Assembly: GCA_937969495.1 (NCBI GenBank)
Contig: CALBVY010000037.1
Coordinates: 1 to 64,000 of the forward strand
Length of the DNA: 64,000 bases
Reading direction: 5' to 3'
Source: an uncultured Verrucomicrobiales bacterium
Lineage (GTDB): Bacteria > Verrucomicrobiota > Verrucomicrobiia > Verrucomicrobiales > Akkermansiaceae
The position numbers were made by a program, and so were the translations under genes. Below are positions 4,054 through 33,248 of this stretch, piece by piece (the stretch's first letter is position 1; each line of letters begins with the position of its first letter). The notes beneath the pieces are model-generated. The model was not told where the DNA came from and ran no database searches. It saw only the letters and a list, made by a program, of their open reading frames with translations.

Positions 4054-4512
4054 ATGAAAGATCAGCTTGTCCGTGAGATCACGGCACGCCTAAGCCAGCA
4101 GCTTAATACCATGCTGGAGGCTGCCAAGGCTACACATGAAGCCGCCACTGGTGATGAGGGCAAACAAGAAGGAAAATATGATACCCGCGCACTAGAAGCC
4201 TCTTATCTAGCTGATGCACAAGCAGAACAAAGCCAAACACTCGCCCACGCACTGCATGTCTTTAAGCAGCTGAAGCTCGATAGCTTTTCCCCGGATGCAG
4301 AAATCACACCTGGAGCTCTGGTAGAAACTGAGCTCGATGGCACGATTAGCTATTTTCTCCTCACCCCCTGTGCTGGCGGCATCAGTATCCCTTACGAGAC
4401 TGGCGAACTGACTACTTTATCACCCGAAGCTCCCCTCTATCAGGATTTATTAGGTCAACAAGCAGGTGATCTCATCGAAGCTTCTGGCATGATGATCCTA
4501 GAGGTTAGTTGA
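4054..4512 (+). CDS. GreA/GreB-like transcription-factor family protein
   Basis: The 152-residue cytoplasmic protein starts with a helical region (~1-75) containing the conserved stretch KYDTRALEASYLADAQ. A beta-rich domain follows (~90-152) with GALVETELDG, SPLY-like and GDLIEA segments resembling the GreA/GreB C-terminal FKBP-like domain. GreA and GreB rescue backtracked RNA polymerase; relatives of this layout are often annotated as Gre-like or Rnk-like. The N-terminal acidic tip needed for transcript cleavage is not evident, so the role may differ. It follows the zinc-ribbon gene closely. The family call rests on pattern memory rather than an alignment. Confidence 0.55.
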   Translation: MKDQLVREITARLSQQLNTMLEAAKATHEAATGDEGKQEGKYDTRALEASYLADAQAEQSQTLAHALHVFKQLKLDSFSPDAEITPGALVETELDGTISYFLLTPCAGGISIPYETGELTTLSPEAPLYQDLLGQQAGDLIEASGMMILEVS

Positions 4513-4575
4513 ATTTCTTTTCTATCTTTGCATTCCATTGTTTGCAAAATCAGCCTCACAAGTTAAGACTCCGCC

Positions 4576-5928
4576 ATGTGGAAAGGAAGATTCGCAAAAG
4601 CTACCGCAGATCTCGTACAACAGTATGGAGAATCTATTTCTTATGACTGGCGTTTATACCGGCACGATGTCGCTGGCTCCATTGCTCACGCTCGCGCACA
4701 AGTAAAAGCAGGGCTACTTACCGAGGAGGAATTCTCAAGTATTGAAAAGGGGCTGCGCGAGGTAGAAGAGGAAATTGCTAGTGGGCATTTTAATTTTTCC
4801 ATTGAGCTGGAAGATATCCACATGAATATCGAGTCAGCATTGACCGAAAAAATCGGTGCTGCCGGAGCTAAGCTCCACACAGCGCGCTCCAGAAATGATC
4901 AGGTAGCTACAGATACCCGCTTGTATTGCCGTGAGGAAATCGATGCTCTCACCGTTCTCATTAGCGGTTTACAGTCCGCACTCATCACCCAGGCTGAGCA
5001 GCACGCAGCCTCAGTCATCCCTGGCTACACGCACTTACAACGTGGACAGCCTGTCACCGTTGGCCACCACCTTCTCGCTTATGTAGAAATGTTAGGCCGT
5101 GATAAATCCAGACTAACTGACTGCCGGAAACGGGTTAACATTTCCCCCCTTGGCTCGGGAGCGCTTGCTGGCTCCACCATTAACTTGGACCGGCAACAGA
5201 TCGCGGACGAACTAGGCTTTGATGCGGTAACGACGAACTCCATGGACGCAATCTCTGACCGTGATTACATCGCAGAGTTTCTCTTTACCATGGCATTGAT
5301 CGGCACCCATCTCTCACGCCTATCAGAAGATCTTATTCTCTGGTGCAGCTCTGAGTTTGGCTTTGCCACATTAAGTGATGCACACACCACCGGCTCTTCA
5401 CTGATGCCACAGAAGAAAAACCCAGATGTCTGTGAGCTGACACGCGGTAAAACAGGCCGCTTATACGGTAATCTCATCGCACTACTCACCTCCGCTAAGG
5501 GGTTACCCCTGACTTACAATCGTGATCTTCAAGAGGATAAAGAACCCCTTTTTGACTCCATTGACACCCTCAAGATCGCACTTGCAGTCAACACAGAGAT
5601 GATCGCAGAAATGGCCATTAATGTAGAAGCATGTGAAGCCGCAGCCTCTGACCCTCTCCTACTTGCCACCGATCTAGCAGATTACTTAGTTAAAAATGGC
5701 GTACCTTTCAGGCAGGCACATGAGTTAGTAGGTCAGGCTGTAGCTGCCAGTGTCTCCTCAGATACACCACTCGACAAACTCGACCTCAGCACGATCTCTG
5801 AGCACTATGGAGCAGATGCACAAACAGTGTTTAATCTCCAAACAGCCCTCAAGGCTAGGACGAATCCAGGTGCCCCAAGTATTGAAAACGTTCTTGCTGA
5901 AGTGAAACGGTGGAAAGATTCTGTTTGA
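4576..5928 (+). CDS. argH: Argininosuccinate lyase
   Basis: It catalyses the last step of arginine synthesis, splitting argininosuccinate into arginine and fumarate in the cytoplasm. The 450 residues match the family. The fumarase/aspartase superfamily signature GSSLMPQKKNPD is intact (around residue 275), as are HTARSRNDQVATD and the catalytic-His region YTHLQRGQPVTVGHH. The start ATG is followed by WKGRF, the usual N-terminus. No other arginine genes are adjacent. The gene lies 63 bases downstream of the Gre-like gene and may be independent. Confidence 0.96.
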   Translation: MWKGRFAKATADLVQQYGESISYDWRLYRHDVAGSIAHARAQVKAGLLTEEEFSSIEKGLREVEEEIASGHFNFSIELEDIHMNIESALTEKIGAAGAKLHTARSRNDQVATDTRLYCREEIDALTVLISGLQSALITQAEQHAASVIPGYTHLQRGQPVTVGHHLLAYVEMLGRDKSRLTDCRKRVNISPLGSGALAGSTINLDRQQIADELGFDAVTTNSMDAISDRDYIAEFLFTMALIGTHLSRLSEDLILWCSSEFGFATLSDAHTTGSSLMPQKKNPDVCELTRGKTGRLYGNLIALLTSAKGLPLTYNRDLQEDKEPLFDSIDTLKIALAVNTEMIAEMAINVEACEAAASDPLLLATDLADYLVKNGVPFRQAHELVGQAVAASVSSDTPLDKLDLSTISEHYGADAQTVFNLQTALKARTNPGAPSIENVLAEVKRWKDSV

Positions 5929-5977
5929 TCGTTTTTTCACATGCAGATCTTCTGTTTCATGCTTATCATCAAACACG

Positions 5978-6436
5978 ATGAAAACATACCTAAGCATTGC
6001 CACTGCCGCTCTTTTTTCCTTCTACGTAACTCCTAACGTATCAGCACACTGCCAAGTTCCGTGTGGGATTTATACCGATGACACTGTCCTCAAAGACCTT
6101 CATACCCATCAGGCTACCATTGCCAAGGCGATGAAAGAAATCACTGCGCTTTCTAGCGATGCGGGGAAAAATGCTAACCAAATTACACGTTGGGTAGTCA
6201 ATAAAGAATCCCACGCCGTTAAAATCCAAAACACCATGTTGGATTACTTTCTTGCTCAGCGCCTCAAGCCAGCAGACTTGGAAAGTGATAAAGAAGCCTA
6301 CCTAAAAAAGCTGACACTCAGCCATCAAATCATCGTTTTAGCGATGAAGTGTAAACAAGGCACTGACCCTGAAGTAGCAAAAAAACTGCACACCACGATC
6401 ACGCAGTTTGCTGCTGCTTATCATAAGAAAAAATAA
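5978..6436 (+). CDS. sodN: Nickel superoxide dismutase with N-terminal export signal
   Basis: Ni-SOD converts superoxide to oxygen and hydrogen peroxide. The nickel hook is clear: HCQVPCGIYTD, with His24, Cys25 and Cys29 equivalent to His1, Cys2 and Cys6 of the mature enzyme. The rest is a four-helix region, and the mature length of ~129 residues is near the family's ~117. The first 23 residues form a Sec-type signal peptide (basic start, hydrophobic core) ending VSA, so cleavage before His24 would expose the nickel-binding amine directly. In Streptomyces and marine bacteria a dedicated protease (SodX) does this job; none is adjacent here. The gene is monocistronic and ends at a shared bidirectional terminator. 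Confidence 0.88.
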   Translation: MKTYLSIATAALFSFYVTPNVSAHCQVPCGIYTDDTVLKDLHTHQATIAKAMKEITALSSDAGKNANQITRWVVNKESHAVKIQNTMLDYFLAQRLKPADLESDKEAYLKKLTLSHQIIVLAMKCKQGTDPEVAKKLHTTITQFAAAYHKKK

Positions 6437-6456
6437 CACACCCTGTGTGAAAAACC

Positions 6457-6498
6457 TCCTCCACCAGGCCACTGATCTGATGGAGGATATTTTTTTTA
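6457..6498. terminator. bidirectional terminator between sodN and the barrel gene
   Basis: TCCTCCA (6457-6463) pairs with TGGAGGA (6481-6487). A T run follows on the plus strand, and an A run before the left arm gives a T run on the minus strand, so it can serve both converging genes. Confidence 0.75.
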
Positions 6499-6509
6499 TT
6501 AGATGTTAA

Positions 6510-7544
6510 TTAGAACGCCCTTTGCCAGCCAATGGTAAAGCTATAATCTCTATTCATTCCCACACCGTGCGCGTTTTGATAAATAGGCACAAGAACTTCA
6601 GCGGCGATCCTATTTCCACGCATGAAGCCCTTTTGAAATAAGACATTCACGCCCAGTCCAGCCTCCAGCACTTCACCTCCGTAGTTTTCCTGAAAATGCT
6701 GAGGTGCCACACGAGGCACAAGCCGATCAAACTCACCATCAATACGATCTTGAAGCGTGTAGTTTAAACGCGCTGACACACTTATGGAGCGATTTACCTT
6801 ACGCGCCACCCAGGTGGTGAAGTTCAGCGAGTCTCCATAGGAAAAACCTGTATCATTCTGATCTTCGAGCCCCAATCTACCAGACAGCTGTGCGCCCCAA
6901 GAAAAGTGCTCTGCCTGCCCTAAATAAGTAGCACCTAACTTCAGATCCCAGGTGCCGCTACCCAGCTGCATACCAAAAGGCATATAGGTGCCTCGATCTA
7001 TTTCATCGACTTCAGCGGTAGGCAAAACCACACCCAGATTAAAATGCACGCGGTGATGATCAGCATCATAAACTTGAAATAAAGCCCCTATCGTCACATC
7101 TCCCAGACCTTCACTGGTGTGATTAAAGGGACTCATCATCGCAGAACGAGGCTCCACACGCATATCTTTACGCACGTAGTTAAGCATCGCCATCAATGTC
7201 ACCTGATCAGTAGGTGCATACATTAGCCCCACCATGTGCATTTCCATTTCCATCTCAGCGGCGGCGGCCATAAAGCCGAGATCATAGACACCTTGGTTCG
7301 TCAATTTATTTGATCCATCACGATGACCATCCATGGCCATCTGCATATAACGATACGAGAGCATCCACTCGCCTGCACCGTGAGTGTGATCGCCCATCAC
7401 CCCGATGGGCGCATGGCTATCTACTCGATGAGTATCATAAGCGTCATGGTCATGGTTAGTACATGGTGTAAATTCACCGGCCTGAAGGCCTGAAGAGAGC
7501 CCTAGAGTCAAAGCTAGGGGCATTGATTGTAGAATAGTTTTCAT
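6510..7544 (-). CDS. His/Met-rich outer-membrane beta-barrel protein
   Basis: The 344-residue protein has a signal peptide ending LQA at residue ~22, a His-rich N-terminal segment (CTNHDHDAYDTHR, MGDHTHGAGEW) and many alternating beta strands ending in a terminal aromatic residue (GWQRAF), as in outer-membrane barrels. Residues ~65-105 are rich in methionine (MAMDGHRDG, MEMEMHMVG). Relatives are usually named transporter or meta-pathway phenol-degradation-like protein; no substrate is established. The His/Met clusters suggest contact with a soft metal such as copper. A gene for a small membrane protein with a C-x-x-C motif lies 191 bases upstream on the same strand, and the two may be linked. 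Confidence 0.65.
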   Translation of the reverse strand: MKTILQSMPLALTLGLSSGLQAGEFTPCTNHDHDAYDTHRVDSHAPIGVMGDHTHGAGEWMLSYRYMQMAMDGHRDGSNKLTNQGVYDLGFMAAAAEMEMEMHMVGLMYAPTDQVTLMAMLNYVRKDMRVEPRSAMMSPFNHTSEGLGDVTIGALFQVYDADHHRVHFNLGVVLPTAEVDEIDRGTYMPFGMQLGSGTWDLKLGATYLGQAEHFSWGAQLSGRLGLEDQNDTGFSYGDSLNFTTWVARKVNRSISVSARLNYTLQDRIDGEFDRLVPRVAPQHFQENYGGEVLEAGLGVNVLFQKGFMRGNRIAAEVLVPIYQNAHGVGMNRDYSFTIGWQRAF

Positions 7545-7701
7545 AAGATTGTAATGAGTTAGTTCTCCGTCTTAGGTAAAACGTGGACGAAGACACGCAC
7601 GAAACCTCCGCCCGTTTGGACAAGGACCTTGAGGTGATCGGTTTTCAAAAAAACCCGCACTCGCCCTGTAAAAAATGGGCGTTAGTCATACGGATGATAT
7701 C

Positions 7702-7723
7702 CCACGGCAGTAAATCTGCGGTG
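7702..7723 (-). other. intergenic hairpin between the membrane-protein and barrel genes
   Basis: CCACGGCAG (7702-7710) and CTGCGGTGG (7715-7723) form a 9-bp stem with one mismatch, just after the stop codon of the minus-strand gene ending at 7736. A second pairing, CGCCC/GGGCG, lies near 7665-7685 and is followed on the minus strand by a T run. Together they may form a partial terminator or processing site in the 191-base gap. Confidence 0.45.
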
Positions 7724-7735
7724 GCTTAAAAAAAA

Positions 7736-8179
7736 TCATGCCACGCACTGGGGGGGCGGAACCTCAGGTGCAATCAATAAACCATGAGGAAAAATAACAT
7801 CATCTACTCCGATGTTACCCCCTGATGCTAGAACTTTGGGTGCCTGCCGTGGATGAAGATCATCATCATGGTAAACGGCATAAGTCTTCAGCACCTCTAC
7901 CCGATCTCCACCAGCAGGAGTCTGAGGCTCTGGTTCAGACTTTTGTTGCAGAGCACGGGCAGCCTTACAAAACTTACAAGCAGGAGCTTCCGTGATCACC
8001 TGCACAATGTGTTCCATGCCACCAGCCTTCTGAGCCATATCATACCAGCCATAAGACTGAATGAGCATAGGTAGCAAACCACTGATCAGAAGGGTCAGAA
8101 AAAGAATAAAGCCTACTCGTAGACCCTTAATCGCCGCGCAGCTTAAGTGAACCAGCGGTGCTGTCAGAACAGTGTTCAT
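7736..8179 (-). CDS. Small membrane protein with C-x-x-C motif, possible metal-linked role
   Basis: The 147-residue protein has one strong membrane segment (residues ~20-42, GFILFLTLLISGLLPMLIQS) followed by an outward segment with ACKFCKAAR and a Pro/Asp/His-rich tail ending in PPPQC. The C-x-x-C shortly after a membrane anchor resembles DUF2946-type proteins that often sit beside copper-handling genes; that resemblance is not proof. It lies upstream of, and on the same strand as, the His/Met-rich barrel. The start codon is divergent from the alpha/beta hydrolase gene 126 bases away. Confidence 0.5.
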   Translation of the reverse strand: MNTVLTAPLVHLSCAAIKGLRVGFILFLTLLISGLLPMLIQSYGWYDMAQKAGGMEHIVQVITEAPACKFCKAARALQQKSEPEPQTPAGGDRVEVLKTYAVYHDDDLHPRQAPKVLASGGNIGVDDVIFPHGLLIAPEVPPPQCVA

Positions 8180-8271
8180 TCCTAGAGCCCTTGACGTAGT
8201 TTACATCCAGATATCAGTCAATGGATTTCAGCCAAGAAACACTCTCCATAATCCCCAGACTTAATCCTCCC

Positions 8272-8300
8272 TTGACTCTGTTGGGTATTTGAAAAAAATA
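8272..8300 (+). promoter_or_regulatory. candidate promoter very close to the hydrolase start codon
   Basis: TTGACT (8272-8277), a 17-base spacer and AAAATA (8295-8300) fit a sigma-70 layout. The -10 box ends five bases before the ATG at 8306, so transcription would begin almost at the start codon, giving a leaderless or nearly leaderless message. Confidence 0.35.
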
Positions 8301-8305
8301 ATGCC

Positions 8306-9082
8306 ATGCGTCTTTCATACCAAACTATCGGCAGTGCCTCAGATTCCCCGCTACTATTTCTTCACGGCCTTGGTGCTGGTAGTGTGCAAACAACATCCGC
8401 TTTTACCCATCTTGATGGTCATTACGTTATCGCCCCAGACATGCCAGGGCATGGTGAGAGTCAGGACTTCTCTCCTGATGATATGAGTTTCGACAACTTC
8501 GCAGATCTCGTGATCGAGCTCATGGATAGCCTCGGACTCGATACAATCAATCTGGGCGGACTATCCATGGGCTCAGGTATCAGCCTTAATATAGCACTCC
8601 GCTATCCAGAACGGGTCAAAAAGCTCATCCTTCTGCGCCCCTCATGGCTAAGCGATAAAAAACCTAATCATCTAAAACTCGTTGCTTTTGTCGGGCAATG
8701 GATCGAACAAGGAGGCATCGATTTCGCTCAGCAGAAACTAAAGTCAGATCTCGATTTCCAACAACTCAGTGCTGATAACCAACCTGTGGCAGACTCGATT
8801 ACAGGATTATTTGGCCGCCCTACTACAGCGGCCTCCACAGCCGTGCTCTATAAAATGTGGCAGGACGCTCCGTTTTCCTCACCAGAGGCTCTCTCCGCTA
8901 TTGCGAACCCAAGTCTGGTGCTAACAACAAGTAGAGATGAACTCCACCCACAGTCCACTGCCGATGTCATCGCCACCCATCTCCCTAATGCGCAAACAGC
9001 AGATCTGCCACCTCGCTACCATGATTCAAAAAGCTATGGCGTAGCACTAAATACCATTGTTGGGAAATTTTTAGCCTGTTAA
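8306..9082 (+). CDS. Alpha/beta hydrolase
   Basis: The 258-residue protein has the alpha/beta-hydrolase layout: oxyanion-hole motif LHGLGAG (residues 19-25), DMPGHGES (45-52), the nucleophile elbow GLSMG (Ser87), a likely acidic residue in TTSRDELHP, and a candidate catalytic His near the C-terminus (PPRYHDS). It has no signal peptide. The family covers esterases, lactonases and C-C hydrolases, and the substrate cannot be read from sequence. It lies 18 bases upstream of a PAS-AraC regulator and may share its transcript, which hints at a link with the sugar-phosphate cassette beyond. Confidence 0.75.
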   Translation: MRLSYQTIGSASDSPLLFLHGLGAGSVQTTSAFTHLDGHYVIAPDMPGHGESQDFSPDDMSFDNFADLVIELMDSLGLDTINLGGLSMGSGISLNIALRYPERVKKLILLRPSWLSDKKPNHLKLVAFVGQWIEQGGIDFAQQKLKSDLDFQQLSADNQPVADSITGLFGRPTTAASTAVLYKMWQDAPFSSPEALSAIANPSLVLTTSRDELHPQSTADVIATHLPNAQTADLPPRYHDSKSYGVALNTIVGKFLAC

Positions 9083-9100
9083 GCACTTCACGAACAGTCC

Positions 9101-9853
9101 ATGGGCTGTTTAAATCGGCACATGCAGGACGACGTTTTTTTTCAAGAAAACAATATCGGGCATCACATCGCCACCATCTTTGATGAATTAGCAGGTTTCA
9201 CTTATTTTGTTAAGGACGCAAATCTACGCTATGTCGCTTTTAATCAAAGCTTACTCAGGCTATTTGGTGTCGATGATAGCACCGAGGTCTTGGGTAAAAA
9301 AGACGGCGATTTTATGCCAGATCATATCGTAAAATCAATCCGCAAAGACGATCTCAAAATCCTTGAAACCGGGCAATCAATCCTCAATCGCATTGAGCTC
9401 GTGCCGACCGGTAATGGCTTTGTTGATTGGTCCACCACCACCAAAAAACCCCTCCCCAATGATCGTGGAGAAATCTGCGGCATCATCGGTGTCACCCGCC
9501 CATTCAGTCAGAGTAAGGCATCACTCCAGCAGTCTGATGAGCTGGGCCCTGCACTCACCATAATGCACCAATCATTCCGCAAAAACATCGCCATTACCGA
9601 ACTTGCCGCCACCGCTCACCTCTCTCTGAGCTCCTTCCAGAGAAAATTTAAAAGCTGCTTTGGCATGTCACCTAAGGAGTACATGCGTCACCTCAAAGTG
9701 CAAGACGCCTGTCACAAGATTGTGCAAACAACCGAGACGTTTGCCGAGATCAGCTACGCGTGTGGTTTTTCTGACCAAAGCCACTTCTCTCGGGAATTCA
9801 GCAGAATCATGAAAGAGCCACCATCGTCCTACCGATCACGCTTTAAGCGCTAA
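9101..9853 (+). CDS. PAS-domain AraC-family transcriptional regulator
   Basis: A PAS sensory domain (residues ~25-140, FTYFVKDANLRYVAFNQSLL region) precedes a C-terminal AraC-type double helix-turn-helix (~150-250) with the signature SFQRKFKSCFGMSPKEYMR and SYACGFSDQSHFSREF. It probably senses a small ligand or redox state and activates a nearby operon. The five-gene sugar-phosphate cassette begins 113 bases downstream in the same direction and is the obvious candidate target. The start may be the ATG at 9101 or at 9122; the second removes seven residues with no domain role. Confidence 0.8.
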   Translation: MGCLNRHMQDDVFFQENNIGHHIATIFDELAGFTYFVKDANLRYVAFNQSLLRLFGVDDSTEVLGKKDGDFMPDHIVKSIRKDDLKILETGQSILNRIELVPTGNGFVDWSTTTKKPLPNDRGEICGIIGVTRPFSQSKASLQQSDELGPALTIMHQSFRKNIAITELAATAHLSLSSFQRKFKSCFGMSPKEYMRHLKVQDACHKIVQTTETFAEISYACGFSDQSHFSREFSRIMKEPPSSYRSRFKR

Positions 9854-29193: not shown

Positions 29194-29997
29194 ATGGTTA
29201 CGCCGCTAAGATTGCTACCGAGCATACTGTCTATTGCCTATCTACTATCAGGCTCGCTACACGCTCAAGAGGTATTAACAGCACCTAATAAAAATGCCGA
29301 GCCTATCAACCAACGCCGAGCTTACGGCAACGCCTGCGGCCCAGCATCACTCCTGAATGCTTTTCAATACGGTGACAAAAAATGGCAAAAAGCCTACACC
29401 TCCGTGCAGGGCAAAGACAGCCGCAGTCGCATCCGCCATGTCATCGCAACATGGGGTAATAAACCATCCAAACACATCAAAGGCGTTAAACGCTGGAACG
29501 TCAAACAGGGTATCAATCTACTCGATCTCACAGACATGGCAAACGAGATGCGCTCTGCCCATTTTCTCCCGAAGATCAAAAATGAAATCCTCACACTGCA
29601 ATCAGGTGAATCAAGAACACAGCTCCTCCAGCGCAGCCATAGCCGGATGGCTAAATCACTTAAAAAAGGCCTACCCCCCATTATCAGTATCCGCCGCTAC
29701 GCTTACCGCTATAGCGATGACGTCGGGCAGAAATCATGGTGGCCTATCCGCGCCCACTTTGTTGTTGTTATTGAAATCCCTAAAAAATTACCCAAAGACT
29801 CCCAATCATTCAAAATCCGCTACGTAGATCCTTACGGCGGATATACCAGAACAGGCACGATCAGCGCAGCCACTGGAGATTTCATCCACTCCCCTTTCCT
29901 GATAGCTAACTTCCCTCACACATCCGTAGGCGGCTACCTCCTAAAAAATCAAGAAAAGTCCGAGCTCAGCTTCTGTGCCATTATTGGAAGATGGTAA
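29194..29997 (+). CDS. Exported C39-like papain-fold protease
   Basis: The 267-residue protein has a signal peptide ending LHA (residue ~24). A papain-like triad is visible: Cys48 in YGNACGPASLLNAF, His in RAHFVVVIEIP, and Asp in YVDPYGG, in the order seen in C39-like peptidases. Such proteins cut peptides or act as thiol hydrolases outside the cytoplasm. No ABC transporter is adjacent, so it is not an obvious leader-peptide protease. It follows the Rrf2 regulator by 37 bases but its regulation is unknown. Confidence 0.68.
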   Translation: MVTPLRLLPSILSIAYLLSGSLHAQEVLTAPNKNAEPINQRRAYGNACGPASLLNAFQYGDKKWQKAYTSVQGKDSRSRIRHVIATWGNKPSKHIKGVKRWNVKQGINLLDLTDMANEMRSAHFLPKIKNEILTLQSGESRTQLLQRSHSRMAKSLKKGLPPIISIRRYAYRYSDDVGQKSWWPIRAHFVVVIEIPKKLPKDSQSFKIRYVDPYGGYTRTGTISAATGDFIHSPFLIANFPHTSVGGYLLKNQEKSELSFCAIIGRW

Positions 29998-30042: not shown

Positions 30043-30165
30043 GCAGAACGTTTTCAGACCTGTCACTAGCTACCGGGAGTGCCTTTTCAGTTCTGGCTCA
30101 GCTTTCCCCCCTCAAACTTCGAGTCCACTACGGTAGCGGGCTGGACAAGTTTCAAGCTGTTCTGC
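30043..30165 (-). repeat. attC-like imperfect inverted repeat after the TM-TPR ORF
   Basis: Reading the minus strand, GCAGAAC (30165-30159) and GTTCTGC (30049-30043) are exact inverted complements at the outer ends of a 123-base element. Inside, CTTGTC/GACAGG-like and GCTACCG/CGGTAGC arms pair again with small unpaired spacers. This R''-L''...L'-R' layout and length are those of integron attC sites, though the outer boxes depart from the RYYYAAC/GTTRRRY consensus outside AAC and GTT. It begins 60 bases after the stop of the ORF at 30225. Confidence 0.55.
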
Positions 30166-30224
30166 CTGCGTCGAATTCAGCGCTTTGAGATGCCTTGCAA
30201 GTTCACGGCTGACTATTGATTTAA

Positions 30225-30686
30225 TTAAGTTATATATTCAGCTTTAGCGATACGTCTATTCAGTTTTTTTTGATACTTCTCTGCAAGACTTACTTGTCCA
30301 GAGATTCCACTTATGGAAATGAGCTCCTCATATGCTTCCAGTTCGTCTGGATAGTAATGAATTATCTTTCGATATTCATAAATTGCTTCAACATAGCGTG
30401 CCTCTTTTGCATATCGTCGGGCAAGAATGTAAGTAAGCATTGGCTTTCTAAATTTATCGTCGGGAAATATAATTGAAGTAAAAATCCTACTAAAGAACTC
30501 ACAGAGAGGTATAACTGTCTCTGGTACAGTAAAAAGAATGGAGATGATTAGAGCCGAAAACCCATAGATCATGTAAGCAGCAGATGAGAACGAAGAAATC
30601 TCAAATGCTTTGCCCATAAGTAGGAAAAAACCGATGAAAGATACAGCTGAGAGTGTCCAGCGGAGCGCAAAGAATTTTTTTTTCAT
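30225..30686 (-). CDS. Hypothetical membrane protein with TPR-like tail
   Basis: The 153-residue protein has two membrane segments (residues ~5-27 and ~37-60) followed by a soluble tail with a TPR-like helix pair (ARYVEAIYEYRKIIHYYPDE, EAYEELISISG). Function is not recognised. I chose the ATG at 30686, which begins MKKKFF before the first membrane segment; a GTG at 30716 would run into the junction element. It is one of four same-direction short ORFs between attC-like sites. Confidence 0.55.
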   Translation of the reverse strand: MKKKFFALRWTLSAVSFIGFFLLMGKAFEISSFSSAAYMIYGFSALIISILFTVPETVIPLCEFFSRIFTSIIFPDDKFRKPMLTYILARRYAKEARYVEAIYEYRKIIHYYPDELEAYEELISISGISGQVSLAEKYQKKLNRRIAKAEYIT

Positions 30687-30716
30687 TTTATCCAACCTTT
30701 GAGGTAACTCACGCAC

Positions 30717-30748
30717 GGTAGCGCGTTGAGCCCACCGACTTGTTCTAC
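30717..30748 (-). repeat. short degenerate attC-like junction
   Basis: On the minus strand GTAGAACAAGTCG begins at the last base of the lipoprotein stop codon, and CGGTGGGCTCAACGCG follows directly. Both halves match the two ends of the larger junction at 32324-32442 and the one at 31645-31701, but the middle is missing, so a deletion form is likely. Confidence 0.45.
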
Positions 30749-31239
30749 TAGTTTTTGATAACTTTGGAGGTTACCATCTTTTTAGAACTTTCATCTTCGA
30801 TCCAGACACAAGACGACTCCTTTCCGGCTACTCCATTTACTCTATAAACCTCATTTGGCTCAGGTGTGAATGAAACATCTCCCTGAACATATTTTTTTGC
30901 ATTCCCCGACATCGAATCAAATAATGCCGCGCCATCAGCTGCATAAATATTTCCTCCGGAAATTGTCAACGTAATCGGTTTTCCCGCAGGGACGATTCTC
31001 TTCGAATCTTTCAAGATAACACCCATACCACCGCCATATAGAGTAGCCATCGGAGAATTTCTATCCAGCTTGCCATCAATCTTAGATACTTGGAATGCCT
31101 CAGCCTTAATTGCTCCTGTTTTACTAGCTGTATCCTTAATTACAGCTGTTGGCCCAGTATAACCCTCGGGCAGCTGATAAGAGCTAATACAACTCGAAAC
31201 TAGTATAGCGATGAATGGCAAGGTGAGATATTTGGTCAT
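30748..31239 (-). CDS. Hypothetical lipoprotein
   Basis: The 163-residue protein has a lipoprotein signal with LVSSC (Cys17) and a beta-rich mature part (TGPTAVIKDTASKTG, GKPITLTISGG, PNEVYRVNGV). No family is recognised. Its stop codon touches an attC-like junction, as expected for a cassette gene. About 140 bases upstream lie two small hairpins (near 31260-31285 and 31300-31320) and then the IS110 remnant. Confidence 0.6.
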   Translation of the reverse strand: MTKYLTLPFIAILVSSCISSYQLPEGYTGPTAVIKDTASKTGAIKAEAFQVSKIDGKLDRNSPMATLYGGGMGVILKDSKRIVPAGKPITLTISGGNIYAADGAALFDSMSGNAKKYVQGDVSFTPEPNEVYRVNGVAGKESSCVWIEDESSKKMVTSKVIKN

Positions 31240-31376
31240 GAACTTTGTAGAAATTGTATGGCTGAAACGAATGATGGTTCAGCTGGATCATGTTATGATA
31301 GTGGCGTTACCGCTATCGCCTATATCGAGGGCTAATCCAGAAAGGAACAAAGCCGCATGTTAAACGCAGTAACATT
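31240..31376. other. gene-free stretch with two small hairpins
   Basis: This gap before the IS110 remnant contains GCTGAAAC...GTTCAGC (about 31262-31283) and GATAGTGG...CCGCTATC (about 31299-31320). They lie upstream of the lipoprotein gene on the minus strand and could form leader structures or be junction debris. No ORF is credible here. Confidence 0.4.
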
Positions 31377-31470
31377 ATGAACACTATACTACATCGGACT
31401 CGACGTCCACAAGGATACAATCACCATTCCCCATACATTTTCAGGTTCACGCAAGGTCGGCACCCGATGA
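31377..31470 (+). pseudogene. Remnant of an IS110-family transposase N-terminus
   Basis: The frame at 31384-31470 reads LYYIGLDVHKDTITIP and ends in a stop 12 codons later. YIGLDVHKDT is the N-terminal DEDD-domain signature of IS110/IS1111 transposases, with Asp as the first catalytic residue. An ATG at 31377 is out of frame by one base with it, so the start is broken as well. No further transposase sequence or clear ends are seen downstream to 31722. Confidence 0.72.
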
Positions 31471-31644
31471 TGTTATGAATTGGCTCTTGGAAATAAGAGG
31501 TGATCACTCGATTCGAAAGAGGTTTCAAGGCCACTAGTGAAGACCAAAAAATGAGGTAACCCTGAGTCCTCGCATACTTGATTCAGACTCGCAGACCACA
31601 CTTGCCCGAGGGCAGGGCTTCGACAGTAGGTTAAAGGTTGGATA
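31471..31644. other. gene-free decayed stretch
   Basis: No credible ORF, RNA or hairpin array is visible here. It probably represents decayed insertion-sequence or cassette DNA. Confidence 0.4.
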
Positions 31645-31701
31645 GTTATAGCGAATTGAACTCACCGTAATGCAGGTGTTGAGAGCTACGTCTTGTTCTC
31701 C
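31645..31701 (-). repeat. degenerate attC-like junction after the YdcF ORF
   Basis: On the minus strand GGAGAACAAGACG (31701-31689) begins 21 bases after the YdcF stop codon, and CGGTGAGTTCAATTCGC follows ~20 bases later. Both ends resemble the junctions at 32324-32442 and 30717-30748. The 57-base length equals short attC sites, but the two outer boxes are not complementary, so it is likely inactive. Confidence 0.45.
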
Positions 31702-31722
31702 TGGTTGGTTTCTCGGCGCGGA

Positions 31723-32310
31723 TTAGTCGCCAGTCACCACATAGTGGTTATAGAAATAAACCTCTCGAACAAGAAATCCAAGCTTCGTTCTCAGCGAACG
31801 ATAGCGGGAAGTCGGAGTCGGTGATGTGACAGCAGAGATCCCGAGGTCACCCGCCATCACGGAAGCTCGCTTCAGATGCAATGGGTCACTCACAATAATT
31901 GCAGTTTTGAGTCCGGTTGAGTCCATCAAACACTTCGCTTCTACCAGATTCTGGTGGGTTGTCCGCGACTTTGTCTCCATTAGCAGTGCGCTCTTGCTAA
32001 CGCCCTCAGCGACGGCAAAAGAGACACCAACCTCACTCTCCGCATGGGATGCACCGTCTCCATATCCGCCAGTGAAAATAATCATCGAAGCCTCGCCCTG
32101 CTGAAACAGCGCGATTGCATGTCTGATCCTCTCCTCAAAAACCGGGGATGGCTTATCGCCGTGCGCTGCTGCACCGAGAACTATGATGCAGTCTGATCCC
32201 TTGGAATGATCCTTTCCGCCGAAACTCCAGATCATCACTCCGACGATCACGAACCATGCGAAGAAGGCTACCGCCAGCCAAAGCAGGATCTTTAAGTTGC
32301 GACGTTTCAT
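31723..32310 (-). CDS. YdcF/DUF218-family envelope protein
   Basis: The 195-residue protein has one N-terminal membrane anchor (residues ~8-30) and a DUF218 domain: DCIIVLGAAAHGDKPSP, FTGGYGDGASHAESEVG, MDSTGLKTAIIVSDPLHLKRA. E. coli relatives SanA, ElyC and YdcF act at the envelope, affecting peptidoglycan or barrier integrity; the chemistry is not settled. The gene is flanked on both sides by attC-like junctions, 14 bases separating its ATG from the upstream junction. That makes it the best candidate for a mobile cassette gene. Confidence 0.8.
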   Translation of the reverse strand: MKRRNLKILLWLAVAFFAWFVIVGVMIWSFGGKDHSKGSDCIIVLGAAAHGDKPSPVFEERIRHAIALFQQGEASMIIFTGGYGDGASHAESEVGVSFAVAEGVSKSALLMETKSRTTHQNLVEAKCLMDSTGLKTAIIVSDPLHLKRASVMAGDLGISAVTSPTPTSRYRSLRTKLGFLVREVYFYNHYVVTGD

Positions 32311-32323
32311 ACAATTTTTATAA

Positions 32324-32442
32324 GGCGAACGTAGAGCTCACCGCAGCCTAGGCAACAGCAAACATATTATTAAGGGGTTTTCTCCAACCGCACCAAACAA
32401 AATCGCGGATGGTTAGCTGTCGAGCAAAGATACTTGTTAGGC
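32324..32442 (-). repeat. Best attC-like site: 119-base imperfect inverted repeat
   Basis: On the minus strand GCCTAAC (32442-32436) fits the RYYYAAC consensus exactly and begins six bases after the stop codon of the upstream ORF. The opposite end is GTTCGCC (32330-32324). Inner arms GCTCGACAGC and GCTGCGGTGAGC pair with extra bases on one side, as attC L boxes do. The left end GCCTAACAAGT and the right end TGAGCTC..ACGTT match the consensus used to amplify environmental cassettes. The next ORF starts 14 bases downstream. Confidence 0.65.
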
Positions 32443-32448
32443 TTATTC

Positions 32449-32823
32449 TTATGATAAGCCTGGAATTCTATATTGCTTACGACACGAGGAACACTCTACA
32501 ACTCTCCATATAGTTTCATCCTTAAATCCAAATATTTGACTCTCTGAGATCGATATAGTGCTAATATTTTTCATCCTGCAACCACACTCCGAACATCGAG
32601 GGAGTGATACCAACGCTTTAAAAAGAATAGTTAACATAAACAACCCAACGCCAACCATGAAAGACCATACAAGCACAGTCTGCAAAGTGTCCTCCGCAGC
32701 ATATGCCTCCTGCCTGTAAAGAGCACAACTACCAGCAACTGCAGGAATCAAAGAAACACTCATTACATGCATCATATTCCGCAAATGAAACCTCTTGAGT
32801 TCGGGTGGAAACGAAGAATTCAT
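32449..32823 (-). CDS. Hypothetical membrane protein with zinc-ribbon tail
   Basis: The 124-residue protein has two membrane segments (residues ~20-40 and ~50-75) and a C-terminal zinc-ribbon-like part with CSECGC and CSSCRKQYR about 30 residues apart. Function is not recognised. I chose the ATG at 32823; the sequence GTTCGGC (attC R'-like) ends three bases before it on the minus strand. The stop lies six bases before the best attC-like site, so ORF plus site have the form of a gene cassette. Confidence 0.6.
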   Translation of the reverse strand: MNSSFPPELKRFHLRNMMHVMSVSLIPAVAGSCALYRQEAYAAEDTLQTVLVWSFMVGVGLFMLTILFKALVSLPRCSECGCRMKNISTISISESQIFGFKDETIWRVVECSSCRKQYRIPGLS

Positions 32824-32833
32824 TTTGCCGAAC

Positions 32834-33130
32834 AGTATAATGAGTTGACTTAATATCAAATCGTTTTGGATTCGATAACATTAGGAATATCTTACACAAT
32901 CCGACGTGAAAGCCTAATTTCGCTTAGTATTTATCCTCGAAAAACCGGGGACGACAAGGAGTTTTCATTGTATATATCCGTCTATTTAAGATATCTATTG
33001 TTTCTGATATCACCCTTAGAATGAATACCCTGAAATGATTTTATGGAGGTAAAGAGTGAGATAGCTCCACATAGCTCATGGTTTATTAAAAGCTATTGTG
33101 TATGCCTTTTCGAAAATACATCACCCCCAT
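32834..33130. other. AT-rich gene-free stretch beside the array
   Basis: No ORF of note, RNA gene or clear repeat is visible between the first cassette-like ORF and the tRNA terminator. A second attC box to pair with the GTTCGGC at 32833-32827 was looked for and not found. Confidence 0.5.
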
Positions 33131-33175
33131 AAAACATTTCACCTCAGCCCTGAAATCCAGAGCTGAGGTGAAATG
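33131..33175 (-). terminator. terminator starting inside the tRNA-Glu CCA end
   Basis: CATTTCACCTCAGC (33135-33148) and GCTGAGGTGAAATG (33162-33175) are exact 14-base inverted repeats, followed on the minus strand by GTTTTATG. The upstream arm overlaps the last two bases of the encoded CCA. Confidence 0.85.
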
Positions 33176-33248
33176 GCAACCTGTACGGGACTCGAACCCG
33201 TGTTGCCGCCGTGAAAGGGCGGAGTCCTAACCACTAGACGAACAGGTC
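33174..33248 (-). tRNA. tRNA-Glu (anticodon TTC)
   Basis: The minus strand folds into a full cloverleaf: acceptor GACCTGT/ACAGGTT (first pair G-U), anticodon stem CCGCC/GGCGG around CTTTCAC with TTC, and a T arm with GGTTCGAGTCC. CCA is encoded (33176-33174). It is read away from kdsD and toward the cassette-like region. Confidence 0.97.

Follow-up and report, generated by a model that had tools for sequence, protein, structure and literature searches.

How do gene cassettes come to lie in a row at a chromosomal site that has no integron integrase gene beside it? The question is raised by a locus of an uncultured Akkermansiaceae bacterium, found in a 64,000-nucleotide stretch (hereafter the window) of the 75-kb contig CALBVY010000037.1 (C37); the window's own genome, G000, is a 2.47-Mb draft. 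Four open reading frames (ORFs) on the minus strand lie there between a gene for a C39-like protein, which ends at 29997, and a tRNA-Glu gene (33174-33248). The original prediction had described four short ORFs, each followed by an inverted-repeat junction, and had proposed an integron cassette array that is orphan or decayed. All four ORFs and junctions are real, the observation as a whole was partly confirmed, and the reading as a cassette array gained support. Our comparison with related genomes suggests an integron platform that lacks intI, the cassettes of which were probably captured through an integrase encoded elsewhere in the genome.

Whether the junctions are attC sites was to be checked, as set beforehand, with covariance models. 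A first heuristic scan that demanded strict R and L boxes had missed the sites in the window, and models were therefore built from relatives. They were made in this analysis from intI-linked arrays of related genomes, with the window excluded, and are not the model of IntegronFinder. Source arrays were the flanks of loci positive for the integron integrase family TIGR02249, with attC sites one ORF apart. Because a single mixed alignment of all types misaligned the L' arm, the alignment was split in two: R1 consists of 19 attC sites (one from G000, zero from the window) with R boxes added, and R2 of eight sites of the G012 and G013 type. In the R1 consensus structure, compensatory changes occur in 17 of 18 pairs, and the left arm contains two conserved unpaired columns, in keeping with the extrahelical bases expected of attC. 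Searched over the whole 64 kb with E values up to 10, R1 matched 31583-31701 and 30690-30748 alone, and R2 matched 32324-32442 and 30690-30748 alone, so that three junctions were matched by window-free models at E values of about 1e-5 to 8e-7.

All four attC sites lie on the minus strand within 2.4 kb, one after each ORF. The first, attC1 (32324-32442), has R'' GCCTAAC and R' GTTCGCC and scored 31.3 bits with R2 (E 1.3e-5, whole window). R1 gave 37.8 bits (E 7.8e-7) at attC2 (31583-31701; R'' GGAGAAC), the right arm and R' of which are degraded; this site belongs to the attC family of G029, having 79% identity over 102-117 nt to sites of the intI-linked G029 array. A short site with its centre lost, attC3 (30690-30748; R'' GTAGAAC, R' GTTGGAT), was matched by both models (R1, 32.8 bits, E 1.1e-5; R2, 17.4 bits). 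With filters off, attC4 (30043-30165) aligned over the full length of R1 at 11.3 bits (E 0.042 over 3.3 kb); its R'' GCAGAAC and R' GTTCTGC are 7/7 complementary, and the left coordinate given in the original prediction, 30043, is exactly the end of this R' box. With their R''/R' boxes (AAC/GTT) and their L''/L' arms with extrahelical bases, attC1, attC3 and attC4 fit the whole structural model. The window sites, at 8-38 bits, are judged to be degraded because R1 gives the intact arrays of G000 more than 100 bits. Folding of single-stranded DNA gave z-scores of 0.05, 1.22, -0.63 and -0.21 for the window sites and of -1.96 to 0.19 for intact sites; since the two were not told apart, folding energy was excluded as evidence.

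Some details of the junctions required revision. Three of them had been thought to share both ends. The left end, R''-AACAAG, holds, whereas the supposed right end, CGGTG(A/G)G(C/T)TC, was out of register: it is the right end of junction 1 (CGGTGAGCTC) only, and sits centrally in attC2 (31659-31668) and left of centre in attC3 (30729-30738). What the junctions do share, besides R''-AACAAG on the left, is a right-hand ACGTTNNNC wherever that end is intact. The pattern AACAAG-N4..12-GCTC occurs 66 times in the 2.47 Mb, three of them inside the 1.7 kb in question and on one strand, which is more than chance. Junction 2, placed as far as about 31640, extends to about 31583, with an IS110-like remnant (31253-31527) before the next ORF. 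The last ORF, which encodes a protein with a tetratricopeptide repeat (TPR)-like tail, probably starts at ATG 30686 and not at GTG 30716, because the latter falls inside attC3.

The four ORFs, all on the minus strand, encode a zinc-ribbon membrane protein of 124 aa (cassette 1, 32449-32823), a YdcF/ElyC-like DUF218 protein of 195 aa (cassette 2, 31723-32310; Pfam PF02698, E 3e-26), a lipoprotein of 163 aa (cassette 3, 30748-31239) and the TPR-like membrane protein of 153 aa (cassette 4, 30225-30686). The three other than the YdcF-like protein had no Pfam, NCBIfam or Padloc family above cut-off, and Padloc returned nothing for any of the four. A zinc-ribbon homologue with 60% identity occurs on contig C23 of G012, where an attC site lies immediately before and another immediately after it (R2, 80 and 116 bits), with cassette boundaries GTTGGGC/GCCCAAC and five attC sites in 3.4 kb that also hold other ORFs. 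Its position between two attC sites is direct evidence that the zinc-ribbon ORF is a cassette. No attC lies near the lipoprotein homologue in G018 (65%) or near the TPR ORF homologues examined. The 5' end of a gene cassette (TTRRRY) should match the R'' of its own attC. In the window this holds at 6/7 positions for cassette 1 and at 6/6 for the TTCTAC of cassette 3 (31252-31247, against R'' GTAGAAC of attC3); there is one mismatch for cassette 2 and no match for cassette 4.

Decay of the array had been foreseen correctly, but an attI-like site, retained at its head, had gone unseen. The core, AAGTCAACTCATTATACTG^TT, occupies 32831-32851 on the minus strand, with its crossover between G 32833 and T 32832, and forms the end of a leader segment (32830-33016, minus strand) of 187 bp that is 87% identical by blastn to 5716-5902 of contig C85 in the same genome. 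Identity between the two leaders (184-187 nt) ends exactly at the crossover, ACTG^TTC, beyond which the sequences are unrelated, and a different cassette stands behind each copy; that of C85 ends in an attC of 87.7 bits. The last ~20 bases of the window leader correspond to the site that separates intI from the first cassette in G013:C1 (GAGTCAACTAATAACACTG^TT), G008:C11, G014:C181, G012:C24 and G029. The window core agrees with the intI-linked attI of G013:C1 at 17/21 positions, and a score of at least 17 was absent from 20 shuffles of the 64 kb. Among 14 genomes of the genus, the 20-base attI pattern with up to 3 mismatches gave 10 hits, and the reversed control gave 0. In G013, mean identity is 86.7% in the core and 67.0% in the rest of the leader, a clear excess. 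By these alignments, an attI-like site with its crossover G^TT beside the first cassette appears to be present at the window array. Beyond its attC, the C85 locus (L138, 6664-6800) shows a second AACAAGATTGTGGGCTC motif and a weak attC match (15 bits), perhaps a further decayed cassette. The context of that locus gave no dating, as TauE is not adjacent to dksA in the two relatives examined.

Leaders without intI and with other first cassettes occur at the second locus of G000 (C85), and also at five loci of G013. The attI pattern has 6 hits in G013, just one of which is beside intI. For each of the five orphan leaders, homology extends over 110-217 nt, to the intI-linked leader or, in the case of C6c, to other orphan leaders; the five head different ORFs, including a kinase and a small lipoprotein, and have attC downstream at 4/5 loci. 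On contig C6 of G013 (L159, ~4480-9640), three attI leaders lie in one array, where the internal core is altered (ATTCTGTT) and precedes a YefM/YoeB-like toxin-antitoxin pair. When the cassette 5' end was compared with R'' of the first attC at 11 platforms, 42 of the 44 variable letters agreed, a value equalled by 0 of 200,000 permutations; at the five intI-less platforms tested, the window included, agreement was 19/20. Outside the window, four of six intI-less loci (C85 and G013:C6a, C6b and C4) match at 7/7. Site-specific insertion at intI-less attI leaders is well supported for C85 and three to four G013 loci, and supported by homology for the window.

An integrase that could have served the window platform is encoded in the genome. 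Among 39 genomes searched for TIGR02249 (cut-off 265 bits), 17 had a match above cut-off, G000 included. The expectation of an orphan array was borne out insofar as C37 has no TIGR02249 match over its 75 kb and tblastn with three IntI found nothing in the window; the genome, however, has two integron integrases on other contigs. The first lies on C43 (383 bits, inside a 610-aa ORF) and the second on C67 (354 bits), continuing at its 5' end onto C89, which overlaps C67 with identical sequence. Upstream of the second, on C89, are three attC sites, and attC arrays occur elsewhere in G000 on C83, C89, C46 and others. The integrase ORF of C43 (L001, 1501-3330) has ~290 extra N-terminal residues, and similar long frames are found in G011 (741 aa) and G013 (723 aa). 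In G029:C1 (L068) and G030:C79 (L070), an attI-like site comes after intI on the strand of intI itself, in place of the usual divergent layout, and in G029:C1 the cassettes too are on that strand.

The window locus can be described as a leader ending in an attI-like site, followed by four cassettes, each a single ORF with its attC, all reading away from attI. Cassette 1 was inserted site-specifically at G^TT of attI, the later cassettes lie in the usual attI-distal order, and capture was probably carried out in trans by an integron integrase from another locus of the genome. Decay followed, in which the attC arms degraded and an IS110-like element inserted at the boundary of cassettes 2 and 3 and then shrank to a remnant. 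We infer that IntI acted in trans and favour this over the loss of a local intI after capture, because first cassettes differ at homologous leaders, boundaries are intact at 7/7, and intI remnants are absent. More tentatively, integrons of the genus may be distributed systems, in which one or a few integrases serve many dispersed attI platforms with their own leaders and cassettes; this is a possibility that we hold with somewhat less than even confidence. If it is true, genes that have been captured can go to several loci and not into one array.

The strongest competitor, less probable than capture in trans yet carrying a substantial share of our expectation, is ordinary decay, by which every orphan platform descends from a complete integron, or from a copy of one, and intI was deleted, with nothing acting in trans. 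Clusters of attC sites lacking integron integrases (CALINs) are commonly interpreted as degraded integrons (PMC9024848, PMC8618304), and the window fits this description through the low scores of its attC sites, far under those of other G000 arrays, and the insertion sequence (IS) remnant inside the array. Decay would nonetheless require six or more separate losses of intI across two genomes, and tblastn detected no vestige of intI, either in the window or upstream of the orphan leaders. First cassettes differ among the orphan platforms, whereas copies of whole integrons would share cassettes, and insertion at C85, G013:C6a, C6b and C4 is not ancient, because the cassettes there are intact with their 7/7 boundaries.

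Several observations tell against capture in trans or fail to favour it. Deletion of intI at each locus would give an identical picture, and the shared leader segments cannot separate the two histories because they end well before the start of intI (~640 nt from the crossover in G013:C1). Use of attI and attC by the genome's IntI, that is, the recombination reaction itself, is predicted only. The decay of the window array and the missing core conservation in the window/C85 pair (86.4% in the core, 85.3% in the rest, no excess) are neutral or count against it. The intI-linked attI on C89 of G000 matches the window leader more loosely, over its last ~20 bases only, and attC4 is a weak site. Of the orphan G013 leaders, C13 shows no boundary match and has 2.9 kb between it and the first attC detected, and C6c has no attC detected downstream. 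Capture in trans remains, on balance, the probable history of the window array.

Three further explanations fare far worse. Off-target insertion, with cassettes at ordinary attG-like genomic sites and no attI, has precedent, as IntI uses secondary GNT sites (PMC10127599) and attG sites (PMC12901181); it is very improbable here, since the leader before the first cassette, 130-217 nt of it, is common to several loci, and in G013 also to the intI-linked attI, and is thus not a random site. It is similarly improbable that the array of a complete integron was wrongly joined to C37. Draft assemblies do inflate CALIN counts (PMC9024848) and integron contigs of G000 are fragmented (C89/C67), but the array is internal to its contig, with 30 kb on one side and 42 kb on the other, the orphan platforms of G013 are internal to contigs of 80-347 kb, and the C85 copy is internal too. 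That the locus is no integron but four neighbouring genes with intergenic palindromes, e.g. terminators, as the palindromic junctions and the adjacent tRNA terminator might suggest, has almost no probability left and is taken as refuted by the model hits, together with the attI core, the boundary matches, the homologous cassette in another array and the finding that no minus-strand terminator-like site coincides with a window attC site. Rfam, which is without an attC family, matched only tRNA-Glu at the gathering threshold.

The remnant between cassettes 2 and 3 (31253-31527, plus strand) consists of the left end and an N-terminal transposase vestige, YIGLDVHKDTITI, of an IS110-like element; the assignment rests on the conserved N-terminal motif, judged by eye. 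Further copies in G000 lie at C48:1111-1385 (82%) and C40:3305-3564 (76%), and in all three the unit of ~275 bp is directly upstream of an ORF start. The ORF downstream of the C48 copy carries an attC remnant. In the window, the unit abuts the exact 5' boundary (TTCTAC) of cassette 3. We had considered this repeat, 277 bp in front of cassette 3, as a second leader and rejected that, as it is an IS110-like left end and its other copies do not end at G^TT. It could belong to an IS with a preference for cassette boundaries. One end of attC is a known target of IS1111-family elements (PMC11187229). With these attC-targeting IS1111/IS110 elements (ISKpn4, ISPst6; PMC11187229), the window copy shares an IS110-like end placed exactly at a cassette boundary; it differs in being a left-end remnant only, with a target preference inferred from one clear boundary.

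The surroundings of the array come from two sources. On the left, the conserved gene for the C39-like secreted protein (29194-29997, plus strand) belongs to a SerAT-Rrf2-C39 block that, by comparison in relatives, is kept in G013, G010 and G008, and in G011 without a detected Rrf2, always apart from the tRNA-Glu block. On the right are tRNA-Glu and its terminator hairpin (33122-33248, minus strand), and similarity to relatives stops at ~33122; the adjacency of tRNA-Glu and kdsD is kept in 11 genomes of the genus. The named relatives of kdsD are Akkermansiaceae metagenome-assembled genomes, mostly of marine or sediment type. None of the relatives examined joins the two blocks in the way the window does, and none of the four ORFs and no attC lie beside either block there. 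Because the blocks are separate in relatives and similarity ends at 33122, the array lies at a synteny breakpoint (32860-33122), and an empty site at tRNA-Glu is not definable because the left flank derives from a different syntenic block. The comparison with relatives that the original prediction had proposed thus came out in favour of cassettes: the four ORFs are not kept in order, the flanking blocks are apart, and one ORF is flanked on both sides by attC at another locus of a relative. Inversions can result from recombination between attI-like sites (PMC10127599); at the window array we found no evidence for such an event.

How, then, does this locus relate to known systems? As in the CALINs defined by IntegronFinder, at least two attC sites lie in tandem, each after one ORF and in one direction, with no intI nearby; the cluster comprises three sites that the models matched with E values of ~1e-5 or lower, plus the weak attC4. 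The window array is a decayed, attI-headed CALIN, partly disrupted by the IS110-like remnant. Beyond the features of a CALIN, it has at its head an attI-like site and a leader that recurs elsewhere with other cassettes. The definition of a CALIN rests on attC sites and a missing intI; sites of attI other than those of class 1 are poorly described and are not looked for (PMC9024848). The aligned attI cores reported here provide a searchable motif for one bacterial group. The origin of CALINs is open, with off-target insertion, loss of intI and rearrangement proposed as routes (PMC8618304). An attI-bearing array without intI, together with dispersed leaders that carry different intact cassettes, points to a further and testable route, namely in-trans capture at an extra attI. 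Dispersed, multiple or orphan attI platforms were not described in the literature that we searched, which misses most subscription journals.

With sedentary chromosomal integrons, in which intI, attI and cassettes follow one another, the window shares an attI, cassettes and attC sites of families that lie beside intI in relatives; it differs in having no intI at the locus, so that the arrangement of intI beside attI that marks a complete integron is missing. A parallel for attI copies away from the intI-proximal position is the Delta-attI-type cassettes of class 1 and 2 integrons (PMC12901181). There, a piece of attI replaces attC downstream of an ORF inside the array, whereas the leaders described here precede the first cassette and occupy distinct loci of the chromosome.

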